DNA from: a virus
Length of the DNA stretch: 25,296 nt
Direction: 5' to 3' (one strand)
Virus record (IMG/VR): IMGVR_UViG_3300028197_000144
Location: 1 to 25,296 of that record
In this document: positions 6,409 through 12,348 of the stretch, one piece after another
Layout: every line of letters starts with the position of its first letter
How positions within the stretch are numbered: the stretch's first letter is position 1
Translations under genes and position numbers: made by a program
Notes under the pieces: model-generated
What the model was told of the DNA's origin: nothing
The model's input: only the letters and a program-made list of their open reading frames with translations
Database searches by the model: none

Positions 6409-8007
6409 ATGGCAGGATTTACCGAAAAAAGAAACGGACCGTTTAGTTCTAACACAAGACCATTTAGCCTTTCAAATGCTTTGAAAACGCTAAGTTCTTT
6501 TGGTATGCGTTATGACGACATGGTACTTAGACAATCTCAAGCTATTGGTCCAATGGAAGACCAGTTTGGCTATAGAGAGATGAACCCGTTTGGCCTAGAC
6601 AACGATGATATTTATGGTGCATTTGCTGCACTATCCATGGCAGATATTAATATGAAGAAGAACGTACCGTTCTTTGATATTGATTATCCTGGTAAAAGAG
6701 ATGAATTGAGAAGATTCTCAATGAATGATGAAGTTGAAGATATTCTAGATATACTTTGTGATGAAGCAATTGTATATGATGAAAAGAATTTCTTTGCAAC
6801 TCCATCAATTATGGGTCTTGATGTTTCCGATGAGGTAAACAAAGACCTTAACAAATACTTTAGACAAATTTATCACTACTTTGGTTTTAATGGTGAGCAA
6901 TCAGCATGGTACTTCTTTAGAAAATTCCTAGTTGATGGTTATTTATCATTTGAGATAATTTATTCCCCAGACCAAAAAGAGATTATAGGTTTTAAAGAAA
7001 TCGATCCAGTAACCCTAATGCCTGGTTTTAATAAAGACGACGGTAAGAAGGTATGGATTCAATACAAAGATGATCCAGTAAAAGAAAGAGTATTATATGA
7101 TTCTCAAATCATCTATATTGCATATTCTTCACTTTCAACTGCATCTAGAGTATCTTATGTAGAAAGATTAATTAGATCTTTTAATCTACTTAGAATTATG
7201 GAACATACCAGAGTAATCTGGGCAGTGACTAACGCTTCATTTAGAATGAAGTTTATTATACCTGTAGGTGGTAAATCTAAAACTAGAGCAAAACAATCGT
7301 TAGCTCAGTTAATGAATAACTATAAAGAAGTTGTTGATTTTGATTTTGAATCAGGGTCATTAACAACAGATGGTAAACCAATGTTACAGTTTAGTAAAGA
7401 GTATTGGTTACCTTCTAAAGATGGTGAAGTGCCAGAGATTGAAACTCTTGGCGGTGAAGGACCAGAATTAAATGATACAGAAGCTCTTAAGTATTTCTAT
7501 GATAAACTAAGACAAGTATCTAAAATACCTTACAATAGATTCTTATATGAAGATGATGGTGGTGACTATGCATTAGCTGGTGACGGTATGGTAAGAGATG
7601 AAATCAAGTTCGCTAAGTTTATTAATAGACTAAGATCAGTATTCCAAGAGGTATTAGTTAAGCCATTGTATATTCAAATGTGTCTTAAATACCCAGAATT
7701 TACTGACGATCCACAATTTAAAACTCAGGTAGCCTTAAGGTTTAATGAAGAGAATGTATTCGCTGAATTAAAGAATCAAGAAATCATGCAGTTAAGATTA
7801 GACTTTATCTCAAGTATGAGAGATAGTTTAATGACAACTAACCAAGAAACTATGGAAGAAGAATATTACTTCGACCAAGAATACTTAGTAACAAAGTATC
7901 TAAAACTAACTGAGGATGAAATTAACGCTAACAAGTCCTATAAAGCAAAGGCTGCAAAAGCCGCTGCTGATGAACCGGCACCTGAAGACGACGGGCTGGG
8001 AATCTAA
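6409..8007 (+). CDS. 20: Portal vertex protein gp20
   Basis: The dodecameric portal at one head vertex nucleates prohead assembly and is the channel through which terminase packages DNA. The product has 532 residues (T4 gp20: 524). Recognisable gp20 features are the NDEVEDILDILCDEAIVYD region; ARVIWAVTNASFRMKF-type text after RSFNLLRIMEHTR; the tunnel-region helix MNNYKEVVDFDFESGSLTTD; EYWLPSKDGEVPEIETL; and KYFYDKLRQVSKIPYNRF. The C-terminus is Ala/Lys-rich and then acidic. It opens the head module in T4 order (20, core, 21, 22, 23). A late box precedes it. Confidence 0.95.
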   Translation: MAGFTEKRNGPFSSNTRPFSLSNALKTLSSFGMRYDDMVLRQSQAIGPMEDQFGYREMNPFGLDNDDIYGAFAALSMADINMKKNVPFFDIDYPGKRDELRRFSMNDEVEDILDILCDEAIVYDEKNFFATPSIMGLDVSDEVNKDLNKYFRQIYHYFGFNGEQSAWYFFRKFLVDGYLSFEIIYSPDQKEIIGFKEIDPVTLMPGFNKDDGKKVWIQYKDDPVKERVLYDSQIIYIAYSSLSTASRVSYVERLIRSFNLLRIMEHTRVIWAVTNASFRMKFIIPVGGKSKTRAKQSLAQLMNNYKEVVDFDFESGSLTTDGKPMLQFSKEYWLPSKDGEVPEIETLGGEGPELNDTEALKYFYDKLRQVSKIPYNRFLYEDDGGDYALAGDGMVRDEIKFAKFINRLRSVFQEVLVKPLYIQMCLKYPEFTDDPQFKTQVALRFNEENVFAELKNQEIMQLRLDFISSMRDSLMTTNQETMEEEYYFDQEYLVTKYLKLTEDEINANKSYKAKAAKAAADEPAPEDDGLGI

Positions 8008-8046: not shown

Positions 8047-8409
8047 ATGAAAACAGATATTAATATTTTTAAAACATTTGAAGAATTCATCACTGAAGAC
8101 GCTTTAAAAGCCGGTGAAGAATCTGATATTTATGTAGAGCCTTTAACTTTAGACTCAGGTTCGGAGATTAAATCAGCTGAAATATTAGGAGCTATTACAG
8201 CATCTAAGACAGAAAAAGAGTTTAAAGACTATTTCTTTCAAGAGTATGGACAAGATGCTTTTGCTGAAGGTGAAATGGATATTCTAGTTAAATATTACCT
8301 AGATAAAGAGACAGAAGACGCCGAAGAAGAGAAAGAAGCAGAAGCAGAAGGTGATTCAGAAGGTGGTGAAGAAGCTGCAGCTGATGACGAGCTAGACCTT
8401 GACATTTAA
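8047..8409 (+). CDS. Small acidic late protein, probable prohead core protein (gp67/68-like position)
   Basis: The product has 120 residues. The N-terminus is MKTDINIFKTFEEFITEDAL; the C-terminal ~35 residues are almost entirely Glu, Asp, Ala and Gly. In T4 the genes between portal 20 and protease 21 are 67 and 68, short charged internal core proteins needed for correct head shape. The position between 20 and 21-22 and the acidic character fit that role, but I see no specific sequence match. Acidic tails also occur in the neighbouring scaffold protein, so this may be a related core component. Confidence 0.6.
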   Translation: MKTDINIFKTFEEFITEDALKAGEESDIYVEPLTLDSGSEIKSAEILGAITASKTEKEFKDYFFQEYGQDAFAEGEMDILVKYYLDKETEDAEEEKEAEAEGDSEGGEEAAADDELDLDI

Positions 8410-8438: not shown

Positions 8439-8446
8439 GATATATA
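8439..8446 (+). promoter_or_regulatory. Late promoter-like box GATATATA upstream of protease-scaffold gene
   Basis: Exact 8-mer in the 61-base gap between the acidic protein and the protease-scaffold gene, 24 bases before the ATG at 8471. An A-rich leader follows. Confidence 0.65.
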
Positions 8447-8470: not shown

Positions 8471-10843
8471 ATGGCAAAAGTTAACGATTTACTAATCGTC
8501 GAAATGTCCTCTTCCCAACTAAGCGTAGCTTCAACGGAAAATAAAGAGTACATCCTCGAAGGTATTTTTGGTGAAATTGACACTAAGAATAAAAATAATA
8601 GAATTTATACTGAAGATGAGTATGTACCTCAAATTCAAGCTTTACAAGATAAGATTAAGTCTTCTAAGCTTTTAGGTGAGTTAGACCATCCTCAACAATT
8701 CGATATTTCTCTAAAAAGTGTTTCACACATTATAGAGGAACTTTACTATGATAAAGAATCAAAACATGTAAAAGGTAAAATTAGACTATTAGATACTGAC
8801 GCAGGTCGTCAAGCTAAAGCATTAGTTGATGCTGGTGTACCTTTACAAATTTCTTCAAGAGCAGCTGGAGCTGTAGAATCAAATGGTAAAGTTAAAATCA
8901 AACAACTATTTACTTATGACCTAGTTGCAGATCCTGGATTTGCTAACGCTGAGTTAAAGAGAGTAAATGAGTCTTATGGTTTTGATAACAACTCTGGACT
9001 TTGGATTTACGAAATGAATGGTGAAGCAAAGTCTACAGAACAAGATATTACAACAACAAACATAAATACAGAAATAAAAGAAAAAAACATGGCAGAATTT
9101 GTAAAAGCTGAAGATTTCCATAAGTATTCTGAGTACTTAGCTAACGAAATGAAAAGCATTAAAGAGTCTATCGGTGCAAAAAACGAAGACAACACGTTAG
9201 AAGATGTAACATCTCATAACGACCACATCGTTGAAAGCGTTAATACTCTCTCAGAATATGTTGAGTATTTAGCTGGCAAATTAGACGAGTCAATCCAGTA
9301 TTCAGAACACGTTGCTGAAAAAGCAGATCAAGGTATATCTTATACTGAGACTGTTGCTGAAAAATTAGATCAAGGTATTCAGTACTCTGAGCATTTAGCA
9401 GAAGCTGTTGGTAAAGTTAAAGACTTTGCTAACTATGTTGCTGAACAAGCTAACGAAGGTAATGAAACTAATAAGAATCTATTAGGTTACGTTGAATACT
9501 TAAAAGAAAACTTACAGCAAGTATCAGAATATACTGAATACATCGCAACTCAAATCAATGAAAACTTAGTTGAAGAAACTGAAGAGGTTGAAGAGACTGA
9601 AGAAGTTGAAGAAACTGAAGAAACTCCAGAAGTAACTGAAGAGGAAACTCCAGAAGTAACTGAAGAGGAAACTCCAGAAGTAACTGAAGAGGATGAAGCT
9701 GGTGAAGGTGCTGAAGAAGTTGCTGAAGAAGATGAAGTTGAAGAAAGTAAATTAGATACTGCTTTAGCTGTTGCTGATTTAGCAAGTAAACTTAAAGATG
9801 ATGAAGCTGACGAATCTGAAGAAGTTGAAGAGACTGAAGAAGTAGCTGAAACTGAAGAAGTTGAAGAGACTGAAGAAGTTGAAGAGACTGAAGAAGTAGC
9901 TGAAACTGAAGAAGTTGAAGAGACTGAAGAAGTTGAAGAGACTGAAGAAGTTGAAGAGACTGAAGAAGTAGCTGAAACTGAAGAAGTTGAAGAGACTGAA
10001 GAAGTTGAAGAAACTGAAGAAGTTACTGAGGAAGAAGATGAAGAATTTCATACAGAAGCTGAAGAAGTAACTGAAGAAGAAGACGCTGTTGAAGCACCTG
10101 GTGCTGAAAAGGAAGAAGCTGAAGGCGGAGAAGAAGCTGGTGATAATTCAGAAGAAGGTGATGTAGAGTCTGGTGATTCTGGAGAACCTGCTGAAGAATT
10201 AGAAGATGAAACTGAAGATGTATCTGAAGTTGAGCCAGAAGGTGAAACTGAAGAAGCTGAAGCTGGTGAAGGTGATGAAGAAGCTGAAGGTGAAGAAGGA
10301 GCACACGATCCATTAGAATCTTACAAAAAAGAAATTTCATCTAAATTAGATACATTAGTAGAAGCTGCTCAAGTAAAAGAAAATGAAAATCCTGCATTCT
10401 TAAATGTAGTTTCAGGTTCTATACAAGAGGCTTACAATACACTAAATGAAGATGCAAAAACTGAAGTTAGAAACAGAGTTACAAAAAGAGCATTTATGAA
10501 TGAGTCACAAATTAGTGCAATCATTGAAAACGCAAATGCTGTTGTTGAAGCTAAGAATAACGAACCATTCTTTATGACTGCAATACCTACAGAATATAAA
10601 GAAAAGTTTGAATCTCTAACTGAAGGAAAACAAGCACAAATTAAAGCACAAGCAAATTATCATACTCTAAAGACTGAGTATCAAGTTAGAAACTTCTGGG
10701 AAACTAGAGATCTAAGAGAGGTTAAAGTTGACTTAGAAAAGTTAGCTGCAGTTAATGAATCAGCTAAGACTGAAGAAATTAATAAGCCACTATATGATGT
10801 TTCCGATATGGCTGATGCTTTTAAGAAAAGATTTAAAAAGTAA
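8471..10843 (+). CDS. 21-22: Prohead protease-scaffold fusion (gp21 + gp22)
   Basis: One 790-residue frame joins two functions that T4 encodes separately. Residues 1 to about 170 resemble the T4 gp21 / S78-type assembly protease: LLGELDHP with candidate catalytic H73, ISSRAAG with candidate nucleophile S128 or S129, and D150/D154 as possible third residue. Residues ~185-206 are a Thr/Asn/Lys linker. Residues 207-790 resemble a scaffolding core protein: heptad-like 14-residue repeats (271-312), a long Glu/Val/Thr repeat tract (about 367-525), an acidic linker, and a helical C-terminus. It lies between core protein and major capsid as 21 and 22 do in T4. Candidate gp21-type cleavage sites include LAE|A (E311) and LTE|G (E718). 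An internal in-frame ATG at 9089 may yield scaffold alone. Confidence 0.85.
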   Translation: MAKVNDLLIVEMSSSQLSVASTENKEYILEGIFGEIDTKNKNNRIYTEDEYVPQIQALQDKIKSSKLLGELDHPQQFDISLKSVSHIIEELYYDKESKHVKGKIRLLDTDAGRQAKALVDAGVPLQISSRAAGAVESNGKVKIKQLFTYDLVADPGFANAELKRVNESYGFDNNSGLWIYEMNGEAKSTEQDITTTNINTEIKEKNMAEFVKAEDFHKYSEYLANEMKSIKESIGAKNEDNTLEDVTSHNDHIVESVNTLSEYVEYLAGKLDESIQYSEHVAEKADQGISYTETVAEKLDQGIQYSEHLAEAVGKVKDFANYVAEQANEGNETNKNLLGYVEYLKENLQQVSEYTEYIATQINENLVEETEEVEETEEVEETEETPEVTEEETPEVTEEETPEVTEEDEAGEGAEEVAEEDEVEESKLDTALAVADLASKLKDDEADESEEVEETEEVAETEEVEETEEVEETEEVAETEEVEETEEVEETEEVEETEEVAETEEVEETEEVEETEEVTEEEDEEFHTEAEEVTEEEDAVEAPGAEKEEAEGGEEAGDNSEEGDVESGDSGEPAEELEDETEDVSEVEPEGETEEAEAGEGDEEAEGEEGAHDPLESYKKEISSKLDTLVEAAQVKENENPAFLNVVSGSIQEAYNTLNEDAKTEVRNRVTKRAFMNESQISAIIENANAVVEAKNNEPFFMTAIPTEYKEKFESLTEGKQAQIKAQANYHTLKTEYQVRNFWETRDLREVKVDLEKLAAVNESAKTEEINKPLYDVSDMADAFKKRFKK
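9061..9091 (+). promoter_or_regulatory. Candidate internal promoter and start codon for a nested scaffold product
   Basis: Inside the protease-scaffold frame, CATAAATA (9061-9068) matches the general T4/cyanophage late-box form NATAAATA and lies 20 bases before an in-frame ATG at 9089-9091. The bases between are A-rich and G/C-poor, like the leaders of other genes here. Initiation would give a 584-residue scaffold beginning MAEFVKAEDF. This is inference; a GATATTAC at 9044 is an alternative, weaker box. Confidence 0.4.
9281..9406 (+). repeat. Three 42-base tandem repeats (14-residue coiled-coil units)
   Basis: Units at 9281-9322, 9323-9364 and 9365-9406 encode LDESIQYSEHVAEK, ADQGISYTETVAEK and LDQGIQYSEHLAEA. 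Fourteen residues equal two heptads, so this is expected to lengthen a helical rod in the scaffold. DNA copies are diverged, so they are older than the Glu-rich repeats downstream. Confidence 0.8.
9569..9691 (+). repeat. Glu-rich tandem repeat tract 1 in scaffold
   Basis: It encodes VEETEE units followed by three near-identical TPEVTEEE units (24-base period). The DNA copies are almost identical, consistent with recent expansion. Confidence 0.85.
9818..10040 (+). repeat. Glu-rich tandem repeat tract 2 in scaffold (18-base period)
   Basis: Eleven hexapeptide units V(E/A)ETEE in a row, with the Ala variant at units 2, 5 and 9. The 18-base unit GAAGTTGAAGAGACTGAA is repeated almost perfectly at DNA level and the Ala variant has its own constant spelling, which points to duplication of multi-unit blocks. 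The opposite strand gives Leu/Phe-rich open frames that are artefacts of this repeat. Confidence 0.9.
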
Positions 10844-10845
10844 AC

Positions 10846-10853
10846 AATATATA
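10846..10853 (+). promoter_or_regulatory. Late promoter-like box AATATATA upstream of major capsid gene
   Basis: AATATATAAAC lies three bases after the protease-scaffold stop (A in place of the first G of the usual box). It is 97 bases before the capsid ATG, the longest spacing in the window. Confidence 0.5.
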
Positions 10854-10950
10854 AACTAATCGACGATATAGGGTATCGAAGCAGAAAACCCAAGCAAGTC
10901 GAGTTTCGAAAGAAACACTAAACAAACCATTAAAAAAACAATTTAACAAA
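10854..10950 (+). promoter_or_regulatory. Long, potentially structured 5' leader of the major capsid gene
   Basis: This gene-free stretch can form small hairpins: CGATA/TATCG (10864-10868 with 10874-10878, loop TAGGG) and GTTTC/GAAAC (10903-10907 with 10912-10916) closing a GAAA tetraloop. GGGT (10871-10874) can alternatively pair with ACCC (10888-10891). The last ~30 bases before the ATG are A-rich and unstructured. A role in mRNA stability or translation level of the most abundant virion protein is inferred. Confidence 0.4.
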
Positions 10951-12348
10951 ATGGCAAATTTAATTAATGAAGCTGAAGTTAGAAACACTTGGTCTCCGAT
11001 TATCGAAGAAGCAACTGGAATTAACGAAAGCTCAAAACTAGCTTGGATGTCAGAATACTGTCACAATCACAAGCTTTATGAAGATGCAAACATCATGTCT
11101 TTAGGGACTGCTGGTAACATCTTTGGTATGGGAGCTGCAAGCTTACCTGCTACTCCAAACAGCGCTGACTTAGGTTCAGGCGATAAAGCTCCAACTTTAT
11201 TACCTTTAGCTATGCAAGTTGCTGCACAAACAATCGGTCTTGATTTAGTACCTGTTGTACCAATGGCTGGACCAATGGGATTACTTTCTTACTTAGACTT
11301 CGTATACGAAGGTGGTAAAGTAGGTGGTACTGAGGCTCCAACTTACATCAAATCTGCAACTGCTGTTGCTGCATTTACTGAAAACGGTAGAACATTTACT
11401 CCTGAGGCTGTATTATCTAGAGTAGATGGAGAAACTATCTACCTTGTTACTGGTGATGCTACTAATGCTACACTTACAACTTTAGCTGACTTTAGAGCTG
11501 GTTCTGGTGAAGCTGCTGCTACGATTTCTTTAGTAAAAGCTTTAGAAGATCACATTCCTGCTTTCTCTGGTGCTGCTGATGGTAGCCCATATTCAAGAAG
11601 TGCAGGGGAACAAGCTCCAGACAAAGTAATGGGCTTAAGCTTATTCTCTAAAAGCGTTGCTGCTGAAACTTTCCAAGTTGCTGCTGCAGTTACTAGAGAG
11701 CAAGTACAAGACCTTAAACAATTCGGTGTTGACGCTATCGCTCAAGTAGAGGCAGTTTTAACTAACGAATTAACTCAGTCTATTAACAACCACATCTTAA
11801 CGTCAATGAGAGCATTAGCTGCTGGAAATGATGGCGTAGGTAACTTAGCATTCGGTGCTCTAGCTGGTGGTGAAACTAAAGCTGACCAACACAGAAAGAT
11901 TTTAACTCACATCTTAGCTTCTGCGAACTTAATCGCACAAAGAGGTAGAAGAGGTGCTGGTAACTTCGCTGTAGTAGGTGGAATGGTTGCTTCTGCAATC
12001 CAATCTGTTGCTGGTTTCGTTGCATACCCAATGGCTAACACTGTTAACCAAGTTGCAGGTTCAATCTATCCTTTAGGTTCTGTTGCAGGTATTAACATTT
12101 ACACTGACCCATCAATTGGTTTTGGTGATCTAAATGTATTAGTTGGTAGAAAAGGTGACGGTAACGGACCTGGACTAGTATTCATGCCTTACTTAATGGC
12201 TGAATCAGTACAAGCAATCGTTGAAGGAACTATGGCTCCGAAAGTAGCTGTAAAATCTAGATACGCATTAGTTGAAGCTGGTTTCCATCCTGGTACTCAG
12301 TATGAAGACTTTGCAATTACATTAGCTAATGGTATTACATTACTATAA
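10951..12348 (+). CDS. 23: Major capsid protein gp23
   Basis: This is the HK97-fold shell protein of the head. The product has 465 residues (T4 gp23: 521). The N-terminus INEAEVRNTWSPIIEEATG parallels T4 KAELLNKWKPLLEGEG. An internal helix follows TREQVQDLKQFG, and RGAGNFAVVGGMVASAIQ corresponds to the GNFIIASRNVVNVL region of gp23. The C-terminal part shows GINIYTDPSIGF, LVGRKGDG, LVFMPYLMAES and MAPKVAVKSRYALVEAGFHP, in the order seen in T4 gp23. Candidate prohead-protease sites of the (L/I)xE|(A/S/D) type are IEE|A (after E20), INE|S (after E26) and LYE|D (after E44). It directly follows the protease-scaffold gene as in T4 and ends at a strong terminator. Confidence 0.95.
   Translation: MANLINEAEVRNTWSPIIEEATGINESSKLAWMSEYCHNHKLYEDANIMSLGTAGNIFGMGAASLPATPNSADLGSGDKAPTLLPLAMQVAAQTIGLDLVPVVPMAGPMGLLSYLDFVYEGGKVGGTEAPTYIKSATAVAAFTENGRTFTPEAVLSRVDGETIYLVTGDATNATLTTLADFRAGSGEAAATISLVKALEDHIPAFSGAADGSPYSRSAGEQAPDKVMGLSLFSKSVAAETFQVAAAVTREQVQDLKQFGVDAIAQVEAVLTNELTQSINNHILTSMRALAAGNDGVGNLAFGALAGGETKADQHRKILTHILASANLIAQRGRRGAGNFAVVGGMVASAIQSVAGFVAYPMANTVNQVAGSIYPLGSVAGINIYTDPSIGFGDLNVLVGRKGDGNGPGLVFMPYLMAESVQAIVEGTMAPKVAVKSRYALVEAGFHPGTQYEDFAITLANGITLL

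Follow-up and report, generated by a model that had tools for sequence, protein, structure and literature searches.

A fused T4-type prohead protease-scaffold gene with a conserved internal start codon probably encodes a nested scaffold-only protein

The coding of the prohead protease and of the scaffold differs between known systems. Genes 21 and 22 of phage T4 are separate. In phage lambda, whose protease is S49/ClpP-like, the scaffold Nu3 is made from an internal start, as it likewise is in Mu I/Z, and UL26.5 of herpes simplex virus 1 (HSV-1) has a promoter of its own. To our knowledge, no separate scaffold is made by an internal start in gpO of phage P2. The account of HSV-1 UL26/UL26.5 given in PMC12474303 comprises a protease, a release site, an in-frame internal start of the scaffold and a second cleavage site on the C-terminal side, and it puts the protease-derived scaffold at about a tenth. 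PMC8508860 describes lambda C/Nu3 as a single gene that encodes protease and scaffold, and gpO of P2 as containing both within one gene. The figures given for the T4 core in PMC5694885 are about 576 copies of gp22 and 100 of gp21, and an internal start at Met45 of T4 gp21, which leads to a shorter gp21, is described in PMC9026906. Judged from titles and the opening of abstracts, no paper among the open-licence matches listed describes a scaffold start nested in a T4-type gene, which is weak evidence of absence.

The DNA analysed here, called the window, is a record of an uncultured virus, 25,296 bases in full length, that carries a T4-type head module with the following features.

6409-8007: portal gene (PHROG 213)
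8047-8409: gene for a small acidic protein
8439-8446, plus strand: GATATATA, probable late promoter of the fused gene
8471-10843, plus strand: fused prohead protease-scaffold open reading frame, 790 aa, with a T4 gp21-like protease followed by a scaffold-like part in the gp22 position
8471-8971, plus strand: S77 protease domain, residues 1-167
8963-8974, plus strand: VNE/S, putative release site closing the protease domain, residues 165-168
8972-9088, plus strand: variable, probably disordered linker (from alignment and AF2) with the putative internal initiation region
9061-9068, plus strand: CATAAATA, promoter proposed in the first-pass annotation; not conserved and not supported
9069-9088, plus strand: A-rich putative initiation region of the nested product, with A at -3, -6, -12 and -13
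9089-9091, plus strand: internal ATG, codon 207
9089-10843, plus strand: nested scaffold-only reading frame, 584 aa, predicted product
10751-10762, plus strand: VNES at residue 761, a second putative cleavage site close to the C-terminus (from the alignment of the C-terminus)
10951-12348: gene for a gp23-type capsid protein
2538, 3634, 6380, 8035, 8439, 12420, 17857, 19889 and 22427, plus strand: positions of GATATATA

The fused frame lies between the portal and gp23 genes, is open from 8471 to 10843 and passes from the protease into the scaffold-like part without a stop codon. It matches PF03420 (E 2.7e-11; 43.8 bits against a cut-off of 27) and PHROG 207 (E 1.2e-34). By similarity to T4 gp21 (5jbl) in both sequence (phmmer E 6.5e-5) and fold (Foldseek E 4.7e-9), its N-terminal part is a T4-type (S77) prohead protease, unlike the S49/ClpP-like protease of lambda C. 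The gene order of portal, core, protease, scaffold and capsid is also that of T4. Residues H73, S129 and D154, which by comparison with T4 gp21 we take to be the catalytic triad, are invariant in 32 aligned sequences, and so are N166 and E167 of the putative release site. The motif [LIV]NE[SA] is found at residues 165 and 761 of the fusion and twice within the first 30 residues of the MCP; the plain [LI]xE motif, after which T4-type prohead proteases cut, is not enriched in the fusion (21 occurrences versus 18 in shuffles). If cleaved as we suppose, this set of putative NE/S or NE/A sites at the protease end, the C-terminus and the capsid N-terminus would resemble the R and M sites of herpesviruses, although the motif itself is nearer to that of T4. 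Foldseek matches of the protease model to the VZV and HCMV proteases were weak (E 0.03 and 0.1).

The rest of the fusion is less easily classified. Neither a PHROG or Pfam match nor a sequence match to known gp22 was found for the scaffold part, and we file the nested 584-aa frame as a putative scaffold by its position and make-up alone: low-confidence predicted helices, Glu-rich repeats and a conserved C-terminal domain. In the AF2 model of the 790-aa protein, which is of low confidence (mean pLDDT 55), the pLDDT is below 50 from residue 184, residues 182-212 are without secondary structure, and helices are predicted, again with low confidence, from residue 213 onwards. The C-terminal domain is common to the fused genes of Tenacibaculum phage PTm1, Chryseobacterium phage MA9V-2 and a Lak phage. 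When its profile was compared with 19 sequences, these three fused proteins were matched, and none of the split scaffolds reached anything better than E 0.035. Tandem repeats rich in Glu, Thr and Val extend over 9568-10302 and include an 18-bp unit present in 11.6 copies at 9816-10024. The fused protein measures 656 to 834 aa among the closed open reading frames of the relatives L002-L081.

The first-pass annotation had suggested that the end of the linker reads like a 5' leader and that an in-frame ATG behind it starts a nested, scaffold-only product. The composition of the linker agrees with this description, as codons 193-206 (9047-9088) contain 8 G/C in 42 bases compared with 33.7% G+C for the whole window. 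The linker ends in AAAAAAAC, which is followed by ATGGCAGAA, an ATGGCA start, and the stretch encodes ITTTNINTEIKEKN. The further claim that the same arrangement is found at other genes here stands for the ATG side only. Seven other starts begin with ATGGC (2550, 3667, 6409, 8471, 10951, 12468 and 22467), and ATGGCA without a Shine-Dalgarno (SD) site recurs at 2550, 3667, 6409, 8471, 10951 and 22467, in most cases behind A-rich DNA; the promoter-like motif that precedes genes in the window is GATATATA and not CATAAATA. None of the 18 gene starts in the window has an SD site. A-rich, unstructured initiation regions that lack an SD are typical of Bacteroidota, and the SD-less starts, combined with what hosts PTm1, MA9V-2 and the Lak phage have, lead us to infer that the host probably belongs to this group.

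Adenines at -3, -6, -12 and -13 are measured determinants that raise translation in F. johnsoniae, according to PMC6847099. All four are present at only two of the 19 starts that we scored, 9089 and 22467. A start-context matrix, which was trained on few genes and is biased toward A-rich DNA, ranks ATG 9089 15th among the 639 plus-strand ATGs of the window. Few parts of the gene are as little structured as the junction: 4.5% of 467 folding windows are equally weak (median 9% in relatives). No RNA structure was found there, and the 80 bases from the ATG onward fold like shuffled sequences (z 0.19).

The internal ATG is anything but poorly conserved. Among the best 80 of 193 relatives, the junction frame is open and the ATG present in all 80, with the reservations that these relatives are not independent samples and that one of the six patterns used to find them contained the junction Met. 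They are 73-97% identical in the junction region, and the linker ahead of the ATG varies in both length and sequence. The equivalent of ATG 9089 has the highest start-context score of all internal in-frame ATGs in 78 of these best 80 of 193. The bases immediately upstream, AAAAC at -5 to -1, are the same in 46 of 46 distinct sequences (window included), and A is found at -6 in 44 of them.

A closer look at the silent positions shows that they are constrained exactly at this place. Synonymous divergence at codons 202-206 drops to about 4% of expectation, which is the minimum across the first 330 codons, and recovers a few codons past the ATG; the next independent low stretch in these 330 codons is at 32% of expectation. 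The calculation used 30 dereplicated sequences, to which 78 of 81 (three were too short or contained N) were reduced at 95% identity, the window included. Not one of 10,000 column permutations matched the observed minimum, the permuted window omitting the Met column since Met has no synonyms. A similar but weaker effect is seen at the first codons of the MCP, portal and protease genes, which belong to the least divergent windows within each gene.

The nested product could also arise from a transcript of its own. GATATATA is probably the late promoter motif of this virus: its 9 matches in the window (2.4 expected) are all on the plus strand, 12-48 nt ahead of gene starts. With expected counts derived from the frequency of the motif within genes, 26 of the 87 dereplicated upstream regions from the window clade contain it (0.04 expected), as do 21 of 107 from a sister clade (0.43 expected), where GATAAATA occurs in 5 of 107 (0.51 expected). 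As a separate observation, a possible counterpart for the capsid gene is AATATATAA at 10846-10854. The late promoter that the first-pass annotation placed within the linker, CATAAATA, does lie at 9061-9068, 20 bases short of the ATG. However, we reject it as a promoter and as the position of a transcript start, as YATAAATA occurs in the window at chance frequency (8 times versus 7.4 expected) and CATAAATA or TATAAATA is found in only 5 of the 39 distinct junctions to which the window clade was collapsed.

What speaks for a nested promoter is the sister clade: 28 of its 31 distinct junctions carry the late-promoter-like GATANATA in roughly the equivalent position, with 27-50 nt between it and the internal ATG downstream. 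There the motif is encoded in two reading frames, GAT-AxA-TAT (Asp-Lys/Arg/Thr-Tyr) and gGA-TAT-ATA-G (Gly-Tyr-Ile), something for which protein function offers no explanation. Because GATANATA is present in 0 of the 39 window-clade junctions, the window clade would have lost the nested motif or never had it, and we consider it improbable that a promoter at 9061, and not ribosome entry on the long mRNA, yields the nested product of this virus. In this respect the sister clade resembles UL26.5 with its promoter, whereas initiation in the window clade looks translational.

The other fused genes extend the comparison beyond close relatives. With the huge-phage record LR756500 we found 65 loci, of which four (L138, L139, L154 and L163) end before or inside the junction; a Met precedes the scaffold in all 61 that reach it, by a criterion that is loose for such distant loci. 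In L100-L140 this Met lies 32-62 residues past the NE of the putative release site, behind very different linkers. In L100-L140, the count of the four adenines separates 36 junction Mets from 150 other Mets only weakly (p 0.04), and the A content does so with p 1e-8. In none of three sister groups did synonymous divergence have its minimum at the ATG. Two sub-groups of L100-L140, with 7 dereplicated sequences each, showed the strongest silent constraint about 30-50 nt before the Met, at the promoter-like motif; the 31 sister-clade junctions mentioned above come from these sub-groups and their neighbours. In the 'ELFNM' clade (L141-L162) the synonymous constraint at the Met is weak.

A further lineage of fused genes carries an SD. 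In the Rhizobium phage RHph_TM40, the Acinetobacter phage Ab1-TPeters and the Escherichia phages IME392 and EP_H11, an SD and an ATG are situated at the end of the linker; in the 478-aa fusion of the Escherichia phages, GAGGAG stands six bases ahead of the ATG at codon 204. When the fused proteins of RHph_TM40, IME392 and Ab1-TPeters served as queries one at a time, scans of viral contigs gave no matches; an alignment of the group as the query gave 37 more contigs. After removal of the near-duplicates L171, L181, L190, L194 and L195 and of the unparsed L169 from 42 loci, an in-frame ATG with an SD was present 5-60 residues past the protease in 31 of 36 distinct fused genes and missing from the other 5, versus 5 of 204 control blocks, each 55 residues long. 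Counted per ATG, an SD accompanies 35 of the 53 that lie at the junction, compared with 8 of 214 in the rest of the genes (p 6e-23); without dereplication and with a stricter parser, an earlier count had given 27 of 34 versus 7 of 177 in-frame ATGs elsewhere. The full AGGAGG is found in 7 of the 36 genes, and L169 (Thermus phage phiLo) has GAGG 8 nt ahead of its junction ATG. In two split relatives that fall inside this lineage, Vibrio phages 1.031.O and Va2, the scaffold gene has its own SD and ATG, and the scaffolds match the nested frames of three fused phages with E values of 0.002 to 7e-8 in what are small BLAST comparisons of coiled-coil-like sequence. The protease frame of 1.031.O (L167:1655-3073), separate from the scaffold, has a long basic N-terminal extension, and a long N-terminal extension is also seen, by coordinates only, in the separate protease of Va2 (L170:1583-3037).

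Among phage records, 1,512 match the window protein and 143 match that of TM40; the region was taken from 25 of them. In PTm1, the annotated start of the fused protease (L084:3483-3582) may be too far downstream: another 33 codons on its 5' side are open, and similarity to the window protease already sets in ahead of it. In Microcystis phage Mel-JY01, a gene annotated as ribosomal protein S21 (L096:4559-4786) lies within the head-gene cluster.

These records also supply the best case for a virus that makes the fusion only, with a protease on each scaffold molecule as in gpO of P2 and with the junction Met as a mere linker residue. The fused gene of PTm1 has no ATG from the protease end to residue 296, and no convincing internal start ATG was found in those of MA9V-2 and the Lak phage (L089), so fusion alone can suffice. 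For the window we nevertheless regard this as very unlikely, since the silent bases around the ATG are under selection and neither the junction SD of the other lineage nor the promoter-like motifs of the sister clade are accounted for by the function of the protein.

An equally slim chance remains that the cut at VNE/S alone supplies free scaffold, in an amount equal to that of the protease. The cut itself is compatible with an internal start, and the invariant N166-E167 pair and the occurrence of the motif at the MCP N-terminus make it plausible. As the only source of scaffold, however, it would leave the silent-site constraint at the ATG unexplained, and it would free the scaffold only once the protease is active. 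Finally, it is hardly credible that the conserved A-rich bases serve programmed -1 frameshifting, which would produce free protease instead of free scaffold. An in-frame A AAA AAC does occur in the window, and each of the 24 distinct junctions examined has a stop in the -1 frame 7-11 codons on, but only 6 of the 24 contain the heptamer, the constraint lies on both sides of the ATG, and the 80 bases that begin with the ATG are no more stably folded than their shuffled versions (z 0.19).

Hence, the nested scaffold-only product by internal initiation is strongly supported by the comparison of sequences, in which the conservation of the ATG, the constraint on silent bases and the parallel start signals in two other groups agree. 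The gene consists of one frame without a stop and has a conserved internal start with initiation signals, and by these properties it is a nested protease/scaffold gene. It very probably gives two in-frame products, the 790-aa fusion and a 584-aa scaffold-only protein.

We propose the following scheme, in which the second product, the ratio and the cleavages are deductions. Translation from 8471 would give the 790-aa protease-scaffold fusion, and a second entry of ribosomes within the linker codons at 9069-9091 would start the 584-aa protein at ATG 9089. As a result, the same linker DNA would have to be both coding and an A-rich, unstructured, SD-less initiation region. The scaffold-only protein would form most of the prohead core, and the rarer fusion would bring the protease in by the shared scaffold part. 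After assembly, the protease would free itself at VNE/S (residue 167) and also act on similar sites in the scaffold and in the capsid propeptide. By analogy with the stoichiometry of T4 and HSV, few full-length and many scaffold copies would be expected, and the nested start could thus yield a T4- or HSV-like ratio of protease to scaffold from one gene.

The design is most similar to that of HSV-1 UL26/UL26.5 (the VP24-VP21 precursor and VP22a), with which it has in common a protease, a putative release site, an internal start and a second site near the C-terminus. It differs from the herpesvirus system in that a nested promoter motif is absent from the window-clade junctions and in that the scaffold-only product is predicted. 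The internal start of T4 gp21 makes no scaffold, unlike the nested start proposed here.

Genes 21 and 22 are split in the T4-like phages syn9 and G2494. A tree built from 41 protease domains does not unite the fused genes in a single clade (AU p 1e-5, with long branches in play), which implies that fusion or fission took place more than once. The proposed loss of a stop codon between ancestral genes 21 and 22 is compatible with these data as one of the two possible directions of change; a stop within the linker, looked for in the best 80 of 193 close relatives and in 61 distant loci, was found in none. We think it likely that fusion of gene 21 with gene 22 has happened repeatedly among T4-type phages and that the start of gene 22 was kept inside the linker, each time with a signal read by the ribosomes of the host or by the late RNA polymerase, this being a joint claim that includes the kinds of signal, namely an A-rich leader, an SD or a late promoter hidden in codons.

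If this is true, the fused genes are a phage counterpart of UL26/UL26.5, built on a protease family related to the herpesvirus enzyme and reached more than once. Nesting the scaffold in the protease gene would be a way for tailed viruses to set the ratio of the two proteins, and S77 phages with three kinds of start signal in different lineages would link the phage and herpesvirus designs. The SD version carried by Escherichia phages IME392 and EP_H11 makes the proposal testable in a laboratory host. Also, many large-phage genomes probably carry an abundant head protein that is absent from their annotation.
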